Made by a program: the position numbers and the translations under genes | The notes under the pieces: model-generated | Seen by the model: the letters and a program-made list of their open reading frames with translations, nothing else | Told to the model about the DNA's origin: nothing | Databases searched by the model: none | NCBI GenBank assembly: GCA_944386475.1 | Contig: CALXBH010000079.1 | Coordinates: 62,001-126,000, forward strand | Source of the DNA: an uncultured Clostridia bacterium | GTDB taxonomy: Bacteria > Bacillota > Clostridia > Oscillospirales > Ruminococcaceae | Direction of reading: 5' to 3' | Length of the DNA: 64,000 bases | In this document: positions 10,876 to 34,484 of the stretch, piece by piece | Layout: each line of letters starts with the position of its first letter | Position numbering within the stretch: position 1 is the stretch's first letter

Positions 10876-11241
10876 TCAGCACTCGGTGCTGGGGATGTCG
10901 TCGCAGTCCATTTCAGACAGCCGCGGCGGGAAGAACTCGTTAACCGGGAACTTAATGCGCTTAAACAGCTCGCAGGGATCGTCGGAGGTGGAAACACATT
11001 CCTTATCCGGCACGCAGTAATCGTATACCGGCACCATCGTCTGCACCGAACGCTCCAGCTGCACGATGGAGAACAGCCCCAGCGTCACCAGCACCAGGCG
11101 GTTGGTCGTGCCTCCGGTAAAGTTGCCTTCAAACCGGGCCGCAATCGCCGCAGGGATGTTGACAGCGGGCTCGCACCGGTTGGCCGGACAGTCGCACACA
11201 TGGCTGGAAAGGCAGATAGGATCCACCACCTGTACACTTGC
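10876..11241 (-). pseudogene. C-terminal segment of the cysteine-rich gene split by the integrative element
   Basis: The frame from the attachment core (GCA AGT GTA CA, 11231-11241) reads ASVQVVDPICLSS and continues to LSEMDCDDIPSTEC at 10876. It has no start of its own with a ribosome binding site, and a TAG stands just upstream inside the element, so it is not a separate gene. Joined to the segment at 18170-18618 it gives one 267-residue protein with 17 or more cysteines. I do not recognise a named family. By memory, similar cysteine-rich proteins with a DxCxDKDCLEDL motif occur in spore-forming clostridia, but that recollection is unverified. The segment is intact, so it is a displaced exon-like part rather than a decayed gene. 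Confidence 0.85.
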
Positions 11242-11255
11242 TCCCTATTAGGAAG
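11231..11255. other. left attachment site (attL) with inverted repeat
   Basis: The core TGTACACTTGC (11231-11241) is followed by one base and the 13-bp end repeat CCCTATTAGGAAG (11243-11255). The recombinase stop codon is at 11258, three bases further in. Confidence 0.8.
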
Positions 11256-11257
11256 GT

Positions 11258-12763
11258 TTAAACCTCCACAGTTTGCAGTCTTTTTAAGTAAACTTTTATG
11301 TTGCCGTCCTGATGGACAATGATCTTGTCAAGGATTTCCCTGAGCTCTACATTGGTCCAGGTGCCAAGGTTTAAAAACCGTTCAATCTTGGATGCCGCCT
11401 GTTGGACGGCATCTTCGTCTTCCCGGAAGGGGACGCACAGGGACTGAGCCTGTTTCACTACCTGCTGAATGCGTTCTTTTTCCTGCTCGATCTTTTTTAT
11501 GTTTGCTTCCAGTTCCTCAATGGTGATAATATCCCTGGCGTACATATTTTTATACTTGTCTTTTAAAGATTCCATTTTAAGAAGCTGTTTTTGGGTGCCT
11601 TCTAAGTCATACTGCTGTATCGTTTTCTGGTATTGCCGCTGGTATTCCTGCATCACCGAAGCGATAAATTCGGATTTGTGTTCCACAAATCCGCCCAGAT
11701 ACGCCGTCAGCCTCTGCGTAAGCTCCCCTTCGTCAACAGCAAAATGATTAGGGCACCGGGAAGCTGTATACTGATCGTTCATAGGGCAGCGCCAGCGGAT
11801 ATAGGTGTTTTTGTACCGGTATACCTTTCTGGAAAACGAATATCCGCAGTGTCCGCATTGTATGAGCGTGCTGAAAAGATGCTTCGTGCTGTATCTTCCG
11901 GGCATGTGCGTATCATGGGTTTGATGCAGCTGCCGCCTTTGCTCCATAATGGCCAAAGCCCTGCAAAAAGTTTCTTTGGGGATGATCGCTAACTCCGGCC
12001 GGTCATGAACGAAATGCTCGGATTCCGGCAGCAAAACCTGCTTTCCGGTGATAAAATCCACCGTTTCATATTTGTTGTTAATGAGCGTCCCGCAGTAGAT
12101 GGGATTTGTTAACAGCCGTCTGACCGTTTTGGAGCACCACAGCCCGTTTCGTTTTCCCCGGATTCCCGCTTCGTTTAAGGAAAGAGCGATTTTTCGGGAG
12201 CCATACCCTTCTTTTGTATACAGCTTAAAAATCTGCCGGACAACCGCCGCCTCTTCCTCGTTAACAGCCAGATGGAACGTGTCTGTCTGGTCATAGCCAT
12301 AGATCAGGTTGGGAACCCTTCCCTTTCGGGCGTTCTCTTTTTTCCCAAAGCGAACCCGCTTGGAAAGGTTCTGGCTTTCCTCCTGGGCCAAGGCGCTGAA
12401 AAGGGTTAACACAAATTCCGACCCGCCCAAAATGGTTTGGTTGTTGGAAAGAAACTGCACCTCAATATTTTCTCTGCGCAGTTCCCGTGTGGCGTTTAAA
12501 AAGTCCACGGTATTCCTGGCAAACCGGGAAATATCCTTTACCACCACCATATCGAATAAGCCCCGTTTGGCGTCCTCAAGCATCCTCATAAACTCTTTTC
12601 TGTTAGCCGTCTGCTTGCCGGAAATCCCCTCGTCCGCATAGATCCGAATCAGGTTGTGGCCCTGCTTTTCCGCAAATTCTTCAAAAAAGGTTTTTTGGTT
12701 TTCCAGAGATTCCAGCTGCGCCTCTTTCTCTGTACTCACCCGGCAATACGCTACTAACCGCAT
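11258..12763 (-). CDS. large serine recombinase
   Basis: A 501-residue site-specific recombinase. The N-terminal resolvase domain starts MRLVAYCRVSTEKEAQ, with catalytic serine 10 in CRVSTE and IYADEGISGKQTANR. A recombinase domain follows (KEGYGSRKIALSLNEAGIRGKRNGLWCSKTVRRLLTNPIY, quoted in parts: GLWCSKTVRRLLTNPIY at about 220). Next is a zinc ribbon (CGHCGYSF ... RCPMND ... RCPNHF), then a long coiled coil (about 385-450). Ribosome binding site GAAGGAGGAAAAG precedes ATG 12763, and a good promoter lies at 12807-12835. The 3' end abuts attL, as expected for an integrase coding for its own element. Transposon or skin-type excision enzymes such as SpoIVCA belong to the same class. Confidence 0.95.
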   Translation of the reverse strand: MRLVAYCRVSTEKEAQLESLENQKTFFEEFAEKQGHNLIRIYADEGISGKQTANRKEFMRMLEDAKRGLFDMVVVKDISRFARNTVDFLNATRELRRENIEVQFLSNNQTILGGSEFVLTLFSALAQEESQNLSKRVRFGKKENARKGRVPNLIYGYDQTDTFHLAVNEEEAAVVRQIFKLYTKEGYGSRKIALSLNEAGIRGKRNGLWCSKTVRRLLTNPIYCGTLINNKYETVDFITGKQVLLPESEHFVHDRPELAIIPKETFCRALAIMEQRRQLHQTHDTHMPGRYSTKHLFSTLIQCGHCGYSFSRKVYRYKNTYIRWRCPMNDQYTASRCPNHFAVDEGELTQRLTAYLGGFVEHKSEFIASVMQEYQRQYQKTIQQYDLEGTQKQLLKMESLKDKYKNMYARDIITIEELEANIKKIEQEKERIQQVVKQAQSLCVPFREDEDAVQQAASKIERFLNLGTWTNVELREILDKIIVHQDGNIKVYLKRLQTVEV

Positions 12764-12806: not shown

Positions 12807-12835
12807 ATTCTACCATTTTCGGTATCTTTGGTCAA
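12807..12835 (-). promoter_or_regulatory. sigma-A-type promoter of the recombinase
   Basis: On the minus strand TTGACC (12830-12835), 17 bases, TAGAAT (12807-12812). The start codon is 43 bases downstream. It resembles a vegetative promoter rather than sigma-E or sigma-K. Confidence 0.7.
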
Positions 12836-13035: not shown

Positions 13036-13164
13036 TTAAGGATTTATTTTTTCATCCAATAGTTTTTGGACGATGATTTTTTTTAATTGTTCCTGAACGG
13101 CCTTCGTTGTATTGGGGTTTATAAATGTGAATTTCACCTTGGCTTTTGGGGATTTTTTCTCCAA
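13036..13164 (-). CDS. 42-residue basic peptide upstream of the recombinase
   Basis: The frame from TTG 13164 to TAA 13036 has GGGGAG 8 bases upstream. The product begins LEKKSPKAKVKFTFINPN and ends KIIVQKLLDEKINP; a beta strand, an asparagine-proline turn and a basic amphipathic helix can be seen. It lies on the same strand as the recombinase, 272 bases upstream. Small genes of this FxFxNPN type often sit by serine recombinases in firmicute elements as I recall them. A role as recombination directionality factor or regulator is only a hypothesis. It was too short for routine ORF calling. Confidence 0.55.
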   Translation of the reverse strand: MEKKSPKAKVKFTFINPNTTKAVQEQLKKIIVQKLLDEKINP

Positions 13165-13573
13165 CTGCACCACTCCCCGCGTTTTGCTAGTATATCTCTA
13201 TATCTCTATGTCCCCCGCAGACTGTATATTCCTGCGCTCTCAAAACCGCCGGACTCCGGGACGGCACCTTCCGGATGGAAAATACGCCAGGCCCGGTATC
13301 CAGCGAGTGCGGATCTTCTTGGCTTTGACTGGCTTTAAGAAAACGAAGCTTTTATGATTTTCAATTTTGCAAAATACATAAAAATAAGTTTTTGTTTGGG
13401 CGATAATCAAGCTTTTTGTCAAAAAAATTTAAGTATTTTGTTAAATAAAAGTAAGCGCTTTGTTAAATACACGGATTGTATTTTTGAATTCAAAAATATA
13501 TGATGAATATAGAAGAAGCTGCTTCTTGTATTCGTCAAACCATGAAGAAAATATACGCAAAGGAGGAGATCGC
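13165..13573. other. intergenic region with short tandem repeat and palindrome
   Basis: A 409-base stretch between the minus-strand small peptide and the plus-strand exporter operon. It holds an 8-base tandem repeat (TATATCTC twice, 13191-13207), an AT-rich part from 13370, and a perfect 20-bp palindrome at 13479-13498. Short open frames on both strands (for example minus 13240-13422) look like chance. Divergent promoters must lie here, but no clear -35/-10 pair stands out. Confidence 0.6.
13479..13498. promoter_or_regulatory. 20-bp perfect palindrome upstream of the exporter operon
   Basis: The sequence is TATTTTTGAA followed by its exact reverse complement. It lies 75 bases before the first permease start. 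The size and position suit an operator for a dimeric regulator, but none is coded in the element; alternatively it is a chance AT-rich palindrome. Confidence 0.45.
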
Positions 13574-14653
13574 TTGAAAAACATACCCATTTTCTTGCGC
13601 CAGCTTTGGCAAAGCATAAAAAGCAATGGATCGACCTATCTGCTCTTTTTTCTGGTGTTGTCCGTTACCATTTCTGGCATCCTTTATTTTTTTGTTTCAG
13701 CAAAAACCCATGATGCGGAACAGATGCAGTATAACGAGAATACGCAGGTTGTAACAGTGGGGCTAGAAAGCAACCCTTCCCAGGATCAAATCTTAAAAAT
13801 AGCCGAAACAAAAGAATTTCCTTTTGAAAACATCCTTTTTTATGGGCAGCTGGACGCCGCTTCGGAAGAGGCAGACGCACCGGTAATTTATGCCGAATTT
13901 ACATCCACCAATCGTATGGTTTATGGCGAAGGGATCACGCCGCAAAGCACCCAAAGCCAGGCGGACGTGGTCGTGGTGCCCACCGCTTATAAAAATGCTC
14001 ATCCGGGGGAGGACAGCGTTACCCTTAACGGGAAAACCTATCAAATTACCGGAGAGTGGAATACCCCCCGGAACGCTTTTTGGCTCCCCTATTCCACCCT
14101 GCTGAAAGACCGGTTCCGGCTGGATCAAATGCTTATTCAGCTGCACTCCCCTTTCACCCAAAAAGAGCTGGATTCTGTCCGGACGGTGGTTGAAAACGCC
14201 GGCATTTCGTTTTCGAATATTCAAGTCCCGGAATACGATATGGAACTGCAAAACAGCATGCAGTTCAGCGTCCTCATGACGGCAGGGGTTTATTTTATAG
14301 CTGTTATTAATTTTGCATATTTGTATTTTTATCTGCTGCAAAAACGCCGGCATACATACGCCATTTACCGGACGGTCGGCATGTCCAAACAAAAGGCTGT
14401 GCTTTATCTTGCCGCCGAGGTCATCCTGTTGTTCACCCTCAGCTACATCGCAGGAGCGCTGTTGGCGCAGTTTGGTATGATCGATCTGCTCGCCAAGCTT
14501 CTTGATTTAAGCGTTATGGCCCTGTCTGTCAAAGACGCGCTCTTCCTTTATCTGGTTATGCTGATCCCGACGCTTGCGGTTATGTTGGTGGCAATTTTTA
14601 GATTCCTGCACGTTCCGGCCGTTCAGGAACTGAAAGAAAGCGAGGGGGTATAG
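13574..14653 (+). CDS. FtsX-like ABC transporter permease (first)
   Basis: A 359-residue permease starting at TTG 13574, chosen because AAAGGAGGAGATCGC precedes it directly; the longer frame from 13460 has no such site. One membrane helix near residues 19-39 is followed by an extracytoplasmic region of about 190 residues and three helices near the C-terminus (about 240-262, 290-318, 325-347). This is the MacB/FtsX layout. The stop is two bases before the second permease, and the ATPase follows, so this is one operon. MacB-type exporters move peptides, lipoproteins or toxins, or give resistance to antimicrobial peptides; the substrate here is unknown. Confidence 0.85.
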   Translation: MKNIPIFLRQLWQSIKSNGSTYLLFFLVLSVTISGILYFFVSAKTHDAEQMQYNENTQVVTVGLESNPSQDQILKIAETKEFPFENILFYGQLDAASEEADAPVIYAEFTSTNRMVYGEGITPQSTQSQADVVVVPTAYKNAHPGEDSVTLNGKTYQITGEWNTPRNAFWLPYSTLLKDRFRLDQMLIQLHSPFTQKELDSVRTVVENAGISFSNIQVPEYDMELQNSMQFSVLMTAGVYFIAVINFAYLYFYLLQKRRHTYAIYRTVGMSKQKAVLYLAAEVILLFTLSYIAGALLAQFGMIDLLAKLLDLSVMALSVKDALFLYLVMLIPTLAVMLVAIFRFLHVPAVQELKESEGV

Positions 14654-14655
14654 GC

Positions 14656-15933
14656 ATGAAGACACTGCTTCTTTCGATTAAAATACTTAGAAAAAACAAG
14701 ATACTCAGTATTTTGCTGTGCATCGAAATGATCGCCGCTTTAATTTTACTGTCCACAACCATCAACAGCTGGGACCGCACCTATAAGGAATTTAACATTA
14801 TCCACCGCGCCGGGCTGGAAGATTCCTTGTTTTTTATGGGAAGAATGTCTACGCCTGTGGAAGTACAGGAAAACGGCAACACCGTCATGCACCAAAAAAC
14901 CGATGAATCCTATAAACAAGACATGCTGCAATATTTGTCCGGCATCGACGGCTATTTAGGGCGAAGCTCCCACACGGGGATTTCACTGAACAACGGAACC
15001 AATACAACGTTTGTCAGTTCTTTTGACCCGCTGACTTCCGAAAAACTCCGGCAACCCACCACTAAAGGGGACTGGTATACCGATGTTACGCTGGACAACG
15101 GCAGGATTCCCTGCGTTATCATGGATACCCACGCCACCCCTTCCAGCTACCGCATCGGCGATGTGATTAAAGGAACGCCGACTGTTTATTACAATGACGA
15201 ATATGACGATGTAGAAAAAAATTATTCTTTTGAGCTGGAGTTCCAGGTTGTGGGAATTGTAGACCGCATGAACGCTTTCATGCTGAATAATGGCGATACG
15301 GCCATCTATGGCGAGGACGCCGCCGCCCTCAGAGACATATTCTACCGCGTGCGGCCCAACACGACGACTGTCTTGTGCGGCGAAGTCCCGGGCGTTGAGC
15401 CGGAGGACCAGATGTACGGCCTTCTCTACTTTGACAATCAAAAAATTGACGAGACCCAGCTTGAGCAAATTCACGATAAGATTTCGCAATACGGTTACTG
15501 CTACAAGATTTCCGACATGGCTAAAACAACACAGCGGGTCATCAAGCAGGATAACCGTATTCAGATCCCCCAGGCGCTTGTTCTCAGCATGATTGTGATT
15601 ACCGGGCTTATCTGCATTACACTGCTCAACGCCAAAAAACAAATAAGGACCTTTGGTATTTATGGATTATGCGGGGCAAGCTGGCCTCGCTGCCTGTTTA
15701 TCTATTTCTGTTACTTTTTCATCCTGCTGCTGGCATCCTTCCTAGTGTTTATCGTCTTTATGGCTTGTAACTATATGGCCGACAGCAGAGGCTTGTTTTA
15801 CCTATACTATTTATCCGCCAAAACAGTAGGGCTTTCTTTGCTGGTCTGTGTGGTTATTTCTTTGCTGTCCACCCTGATTCCTTATGCAGGCGTTAAAAAG
15901 AAATCCCTGATTTCCAGATATCACACCAATTAG
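14656..15933 (+). CDS. FtsX-like ABC transporter permease (second)
   Basis: A 425-residue protein with one N-terminal helix (about 17-37), a large extracytoplasmic domain (about 38-300) and three C-terminal helices (about 305-325, 345-370, 385-408), then a basic end (KKKSLISRYHTN). It follows the first permease after two bases and probably pairs with it as a heterodimer. Bases 15934-15950 separate it from the ATPase. Codon use is AT-richer than in the flanking chromosome, in keeping with an imported element. Confidence 0.85.
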   Translation: MKTLLLSIKILRKNKILSILLCIEMIAALILLSTTINSWDRTYKEFNIIHRAGLEDSLFFMGRMSTPVEVQENGNTVMHQKTDESYKQDMLQYLSGIDGYLGRSSHTGISLNNGTNTTFVSSFDPLTSEKLRQPTTKGDWYTDVTLDNGRIPCVIMDTHATPSSYRIGDVIKGTPTVYYNDEYDDVEKNYSFELEFQVVGIVDRMNAFMLNNGDTAIYGEDAAALRDIFYRVRPNTTTVLCGEVPGVEPEDQMYGLLYFDNQKIDETQLEQIHDKISQYGYCYKISDMAKTTQRVIKQDNRIQIPQALVLSMIVITGLICITLLNAKKQIRTFGIYGLCGASWPRCLFIYFCYFFILLLASFLVFIVFMACNYMADSRGLFYLYYLSAKTVGLSLLVCVVISLLSTLIPYAGVKKKSLISRYHTN

Positions 15934-15950
15934 GCCGGGAGGAAAAGACA

Positions 15951-16616
15951 ATGATTGAACTGAAAACACTGAACAAAATCTATAACAAAGGAAAATCCAA
16001 TGCGTTCCACGCCCTGAAAGATATTGACTTTACCGTCAGTCAAGGAGAAATGGTGGCGATTATGGGGCCGTCTGGCGCGGGAAAATCCACCCTGATGCAT
16101 GTGATTGGAACGGTGGACAGTTTTGAAAACGGCGTATATTTGTTTCAGGGGAAAAACGTCGGGCTTATGTCCGAAAAACGGAAAGCGGCTTTGCGGGCGA
16201 AAAAAATCGGCTTTGTGTTACAGGATTTCGGGCTGATCTCCGATGAAACAGCGCTCAGCAACGTGATGACGCCGCTGTTTTTCGGAAAAGCCCGCCTGCG
16301 GGATATGAAGGCTAAGGCCCTTCAGGCTTTAAAGGCTGTTGGAATCGAAAACCTGGCCAAAAAGAAGGTTAAGAATTTATCCGGCGGGCAAAAACAGCGG
16401 GTGGCGATTGCAAGGGCGATTGTCAGCGATCCTGTGCTGCTTCTGGCAGATGAGCCGACAGGAGCGCTGGACACCAAAACCTCCGCCGAGATTATGGATA
16501 TCTTTGCAAACCTGCATCAGAAGGGAAAAACTATTTTAATTGTCACCCACAATGATGAAGTCGCCGCACAATGCGAGCGGACAGTCCAAATTGTCGACGG
16601 CAAAATAATTGAGTAG
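15951..16616 (+). CDS. ABC transporter ATP-binding protein (MacB/LolD type)
   Basis: A 221-residue ATPase with Walker [10 protein letters not shown] (about 41-49), Q-loop FVLQDFGLI, signature [14 protein letters not shown], Walker [13 protein letters not shown] and H-loop VTHND. It powers the two FtsX-like permeases just upstream. The group is that of LolD, MacB and BceA. GGGAGGAAAAGACA gives the ribosome binding site. A double hairpin terminator follows at 16661-16729, which closes the operon. Confidence 0.95.
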
Positions 16617-18146: not shown

Positions 18147-18180
18147 CTTCCTAATAGGGGGCAATTATGTGTACACTTGC
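18147..18180. other. right attachment site (attR) with inverted repeat
   Basis: The end repeat CTTCCTAATAGGG (18147-18159) is followed by ten bases and the core TGTACACTTGC (18170-18180). Placed before attL in a circle, the two ends make a near-palindromic 48-bp attP centred on the first two bases (TG) of the core. Confidence 0.8.
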
Positions 18181-18618
18181 CTTAGGCAGGTTGTTATGGG
18201 CCAGATTGTCGTCTGCCGTATCCGAAGAAAAGACGCGCACGCTGCCCTCGCTGCCGTACAGAATGACCTTTTTGCTGAACATCGCCAGGCCAGATGCCTG
18301 AACCGGGGACGCTGTAGGCGACTGGAAGATCTCCACTTTTACTTCAAAGAAGAAGGTCATATCCACCGAGTAAAAACCTTTGTTAAAAGGCACAGGCTCG
18401 GTGTCGATATAGACGTTAAGTACTTCGACTTTCCGGCACTTTACATTGAGTGCCGAGTCGATCAGCGGCTGGGTAGTATCGGTAAAATACACCTGCAAAT
18501 CTTCCAGGCAGTCTTTGTCGCTGCACGAGTCGAAAATCCTGCCGGCGTCGATGCACACCGCTTCTTTAAAGCAGTTGCTTCCAGCGCTTCCCAGTGGCGA
18601 ACAATTTTTGTCAACCAT
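18170..18618 (-). pseudogene. N-terminal segment of the cysteine-rich gene split by the integrative element
   Basis: ATG 18618 lies behind AGGAGGAATTTTTCTTA and the frame reads MVDKNCSPLGSAGSNCF. It goes on through DSCSDKDCLEDLQVYF and MTFFFEVKVEIFQS to NNLPKASV at the core. In the present state it adds six element-coded residues (HIIAPY) and stops at 18151. Residues 1-149 of the whole protein are here. The sequence suggests a beta-rich, disulfide-capable, secreted-type or coat-type structure, but there is no signal peptide. The truncated product may still be made. A sigma-K-like site precedes it. Confidence 0.85.
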
Positions 18619-18663: not shown

Positions 18664-18690
18664 CATAGTATGAGGAAGTTTCCAATTCGT
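18664..18690 (-). promoter_or_regulatory. possible sigma-K-like promoter of the interrupted gene
   Basis: On the minus strand AC (18689-18690), 16 bases, CATACTATG (18664-18672). It matches CATAnnnTA at all but the last base; the -35 element is only the AC pair. It is about 45 bases before the start codon. Confidence 0.35.
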
Positions 18691-34388: not shown

Positions 34389-34402
34389 AATACTGCACGA
34401 CT

Positions 34403-34442
34403 AAAAAGCCTGGGGCCGCCAAATGGCGGTCCCAGGCTTTTT
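34403..34442 (+). terminator. terminator after the rhamnosidase gene
   Basis: AAAAAGCCTGGG pairs with CCCAGGCTTTTT, with an inner CCGCC/GGCGG and loop AAAT. T tract follows. Confidence 0.92.
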
Positions 34443-34443
34443 A

Positions 34444-34484
34444 TGTGACGTAGTCACGGTCAAATTTTAAAGATCTGCTATAAT
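34444..34484 (+). promoter_or_regulatory. thioredoxin promoter with Crp-like palindrome near -40
   Basis: An extended -10, TGCTATAAT (34476-34484), has no matching -35. In its place stands GTGAC-GTA-GTCAC (34445-34457), centred about 40 bases before the expected start of transcription. This is the place of a class II Crp/Fnr activator site. The half sites TGTGA/TCACG resemble Crp, with a spacing one base short. Confidence 0.55.

Follow-up and report, generated by a model that had tools for sequence, protein, structure and literature searches.

A small element with its own large serine recombinase and a near-palindromic attP splits a sigma-K-type gene in a gut Clostridia bacterium and is probably excised during sporulation

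The window, a stretch of 64,000 nucleotides from the genome of an uncultured Clostridia bacterium of the Ruminococcaceae, contains a 6.94-kb element that lies within a protein-coding gene and divides it in two (Table 1). A complete reading frame for a large serine recombinase (LSR) occupies the left end of the element; the Resolvase catalytic domain, the Recombinase domain and the zinc ribbon are found together in this one protein of about 500 amino acids. The remaining content is a small open reading frame (ORF), an ABC transporter and two further ORFs. A domain search found no phage structural genes or conjugation genes between the element ends, and a prophage or conjugative origin was ruled out given this content.

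Table 1. Features of the element and of the gene that it interrupts (window coordinates)
Feature	Position	Strand	Basis
Target gene, 3' part	10876..11241	-	ORFs, flank joining, comparison with G083
Left element end: core copy (11231-11241) and other attP arm (11242-11255)	11231..11255	+	End joining; axis test
Large serine recombinase (LSR), 501 aa; Resolvase, Recombinase, zinc ribbon	11258..12763	-	ORF and domain search
Recombinase sigma-A-like promoter, TTGACC-17-TAGAAT	12807..12835	-	Consensus match only; shuffles average 1.7 such sites
42-aa ORF with F-x-N-P-N motif, candidate recombination directionality factor	13036..13164	-	Position and motif
Possible sigma-E-like promoter of 42-aa ORF, ATA-N17-CATA	13207..13229	-	Weak; pattern match only
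Cargo ABC transporter: FtsX-type permease, second membrane protein, ATPase (15951-16616)	13577..16616	+	Domain search
Cargo: two ORFs of unknown function, 166 and 201 aa	16826..17989	+	ORF list; domain search
Right element end: attP outer and inner arm, core copy (18170-18180)	18147..18180	+	End joining; axis test
Target gene, 5' part, codons 1 to about 150	18170..18618	-	ORFs, flank joining, comparison with G083
Target gene sigma-K-type promoter, AC-N16-CATACTAT	18665..18690	-	Pattern in 25/30 homologues

Joining 18147-18180 to 11242-11255 gives CTTCCTAATAGGGGGCAATTATGTGTACACTTGCTCCCTATTAGGAAG, a sequence of 48 bp in which 19 of 24 arm positions are complementary. Recomputation reproduced the perfect 13-bp outer arms and the inner GCAA match that had been described in the original prediction, together with its axis, which lies on the first two bases (TG; CA on the other strand) of the shared core, the 11-bp direct repeat TGTACACTTGC. 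The attP of a large serine integrase is about 50 bp long and symmetric about a central, non-palindromic dinucleotide within the shared core, and the joined ends have this form. The window holds a second inverted repeat that also pairs at 19/24 positions (34398-34446, centre 34422), so symmetry by itself is indecisive and support comes from the joint evidence. The LSR domains adjoin the site, the axis falls on TG/CA in ten elements and an empty site exists, all of which bears out the proposal of a large serine integrase attP with TG as its crossover.

The ten elements for which both ends could be defined range from 2.7 to about 20 kb, four of them (the one in the window included) lying in the same target gene as that of the window and six in spoIIID. 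In 10/10 the target has a GTACA motif whose CA is precisely where the attP axis falls, and 14-19 of the 24 arm positions pair. When the junctions of these elements were displaced by up to 70 bp, a pairing of at least 14/24 arose with a probability of 1.3e-3 and 17/24 was never reached. The core in the window and that of L049, a relative in the same gene, overlap in ACA only, which fixes the crossover at CA/TG. Crossover at AC, on the same axis, would add two bases to the rejoined gene and conflicts with the uninterrupted copy in G083, a genome of the same genus. GTACA is present at the insertion codons in 7 of 30 homologues that lack an insertion at this point versus all four of the interrupted ones tested, an enrichment with a p of about 0.007 in a simple hypergeometric test that ignores the kinship of these related genes. 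Symmetry in attB is weak (3-8 of 18 positions).

Removal of the element in silico leaves an open gene of 267 codons, rejoined in frame with the junction sequence GGCAAGTGTACAGGTGG. The uninterrupted gene in G083 has 90% identity to it and, as in the window, thyX lies nearby. The predicted protein had no match in Pfam, NCBIfam or PDB, and structure prediction for the 5' part (mean pLDDT 46.7) was too poor to be used. Upstream of the gene the pattern AC-N15-18-CATANNNT occurs in 25 of 30 homologues, against 0.6 on average and no more than 3 in shuffled sequences. In C. difficile it is the AC of the -35 region that separates sigma-K from sigma-E promoters, the -10 regions being similar in both (PMC3789822). 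Its promoter and the company kept by its recombinase make a late mother-cell role likely for the target gene. A second break in this gene, near codon 33, is seen in several genomes; it recurs in L029 (5384-6907), L030 (5137-6874), L102, L105 and L106, and in G097, G104 and G061 it adjoins a serine recombinase that is unrelated (24-28% identity).

The family, Anaerotruncus and other Clostridia all yielded relatives of the recombinase, with identities of 38-54%, and those that carry names belong to Anaerotruncus or to other Oscillospiraceae or Clostridia. Five elements (that of the window, L049, L029, L030 and L032) interrupt the target gene at the same codon, and all of the others with a readable flank are in spoIIID, where the insertion point is the stretch encoding S-T-V-H-K-D. 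The recombinase tree follows this division: those in the window's target gene cluster with support in a group that also takes in L047, in whose genome the target gene is cut at residue 152, and the spoIIID recombinases fall on the other side. SpoIIID, a mother-cell sporulation regulator, is required for sporulation in model species. Of the 298 family genomes, 247 gave a spoIIID match. In about 20 of these the match is weak or covers only part of the gene, which is what a split gene should produce, and 13 of these 20 or so carry the recombinase clade. Among the phage and plasmid collections, the relatives listed reach at most 35% recombinase identity, the exception being MT838016.1 (L094; 43%), a scaffold of faecal origin, deposited under the name 'Bacteriophage sp.', in which the recombinase precedes the 3' part of spoIIID. 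This scaffold is probably bacterial chromosome rather than phage; its spoIIID insertion has neither a terminal repeat nor a strong palindrome. The smallest element (L049:16083-18771; 2.7 kb) consists of an LrgA/LrgB pair, a small ORF, the recombinase and little else. In some relatives (L037:19029-19033, L029:11445-11455) the recombinase stop codon lies beyond the crossover, in chromosomal DNA, and integration in such cases would set the C-terminus of the protein.

Judged by its promoter pattern, the recombinase in the window looks constitutive. A small ORF similar to that of the window lies upstream of the recombinase in L049, L029, L030, L048, L031 and L044, making seven elements in all, and it overlaps the recombinase start by 4 bp in the first three of these; no small ORF matching the motif was found in L037 and several other spoIIID-type elements. 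From its position and motif, our guess is that the 42-aa ORF encodes the directionality factor.

We propose, with a probability of roughly 0.7, that the joined ends are the attP of a small, non-phage, skin-like element that has its own LSR and is excised in the sporulating mother cell, rejoining a sigma-K-type gene. During growth the element would stay integrated in its target. In the mother cell the recombinase, together with a directionality factor that the element itself encodes and that is probably the product of the 42-aa ORF, would recombine attL with attR by crossover at the CA (TG) dinucleotide of the GTACA motif, releasing a circle that carries attP and restoring the reading frame of the target, while the spore genome would retain the element. 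We infer when and in which cell excision occurs, which protein is the directionality factor and what the target gene does. That the relatives sit in the same gene or in spoIIID suggests that elements of this recombinase clade are removed during sporulation, and the combination of a constitutive-looking recombinase, a small candidate factor and a target of mother-cell type fits the logic of the gin and skin elements.

The locus might instead be an ordinary LSR genomic island with a conserved coding sequence for its attB, a gene inactivated by the insertion and an excision that is rare and unlinked to sporulation. LSRs often integrate into conserved coding genes, the element in the window does carry cargo, and its sporulation control is putative. 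The target gene, moreover, is present in 167 of 298 family genomes and absent from 131, so its loss is tolerated and it does not belong to the sporulation core. We nevertheless regard the island as unlikely, because the same recombinase clade is found in spoIIID across many genera, the target gene has a sigma-K-type promoter, and the split gene is conserved where its selection could be measured. That measurement compares L029 with L030, two Anaerotruncus genomes that have both target-gene insertions in common, and so concerns this pair rather than the window's own copy after insertion. The three gene pieces gave dN/dS values of 0.142, 0.008 and 0.036; the recombinase and a cargo flagellin, for comparison, gave 0.163 and 0.096. 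Strong purifying selection acts on the split target gene in these genomes. A gene that stayed in pieces would not be conserved in this way, and this one is presumably still used and reassembled in vivo.

A much more improbable reading is that of a dead remnant, an immobile element whose symmetric ends are left over. It could appeal to the viral contigs scanned, which had no exact match to the attP junction and no match to the window's recombinase, leaving neither a circle nor a close relative elsewhere, and to the nearest recombinases being merely 51-54% identical. Against it are the complete recombinase, the clean 11-bp core with its perfect outer arms, and a target gene that reads through once rejoined, the same features that support the earlier view of the element as intact and not a fossil.

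Intervening elements are already known in sigK, spsM, spoVFB, spoVR, gerE and yabG. The gin element in gerE of Bacillus cereus is excised during sporulation by GirC and the 42-aa GirX (PMC5595907). Like the element described here it is not a phage, it interrupts a gene of mother-cell type (putatively so in our case), it uses a serine recombinase and rejoins its target in frame (a prediction for ours), and its attP is symmetric about the central dinucleotide while attB is not; the candidate ORF in the window is also 42 aa, the length of GirX (PMC5595907). The two differ in that gin is 28.6 kb long, has three recombinases and targets gerE (PMC5595907), whereas the element in the window is 6.9 kb, with relatives of 2.7 to about 20 kb, a single recombinase clade and targets consisting of spoIIID and an unannotated sigma-K-type gene; excision is known for gin and predicted here. 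In the skin element of Clostridioides difficile (CD1231, CD1234) a constitutive recombinase awaits a directionality factor that is controlled by sigma-E and SpoIIID (PMC5025042). An LSR (constitutive-looking in our case), a small factor (here a candidate) and an interrupted mother-cell gene (here a putative one) are shared features, but skin is prophage-like and lies in sigK, and its factor CD1234 is 72 aa with control by sigma-E and SpoIIID that has been shown (PMC5025042), whereas ours is a non-phage element in another gene with control guessed from a pattern match. Serine recombinases also excise SP-beta (in spsM), vfbin (in spoVFB), vrin (in spoVR) and yin (in yabG), which likewise intervene in sporulation genes, but these are prophages or prophage-like and have other targets (PMC4191935, PMC10747680). 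In a non-exhaustive search of the open-access literature we found no report of an insertion in spoIIID or in the target gene of the window. What appears to be new is the pair of targets, the small non-phage elements and the spread of one recombinase clade over many genera.

The host of the window has spoIVA and an intact spoIIID. Its sigK (contig C70 of the host assembly, G000; L098:3260-3643, minus strand) is broken after CIE(K), where the intact gene of its genus-mate G083 reads CIENEIL, and a search of the assembly did not recover the 3' part; this looks like a second intervening element of the skin type or an assembly gap. We give even odds to a broader proposal that takes in this sigK interruption. 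According to it, one LSR clade of Oscillospiraceae-type gut Clostridia would be dedicated to splitting mother-cell sporulation genes, having switched between spoIIID and an unrelated sigma-K-type gene that share the GTACA crossover, with small cargo elements being excised in spore development. If this is true, the host of the window would have at least two programmed excisions per sporulation.

In the papers that we found, intervening elements are mostly single cases, from Bacillus or from a small number of Clostridium species. The recombinase clade described here is distributed over many genera of one family and lies in sporulation-type genes wherever the flank is readable. As by-products, the analysis provides recombinases with defined attP/attB pairs and a pointer, through the target gene, to an uncharacterised and probably spore-related protein family. 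If the proposal is correct, genes that seem to be broken in assemblies would be functional, and DNA excision would be a common control step of spore formation in gut Clostridia.
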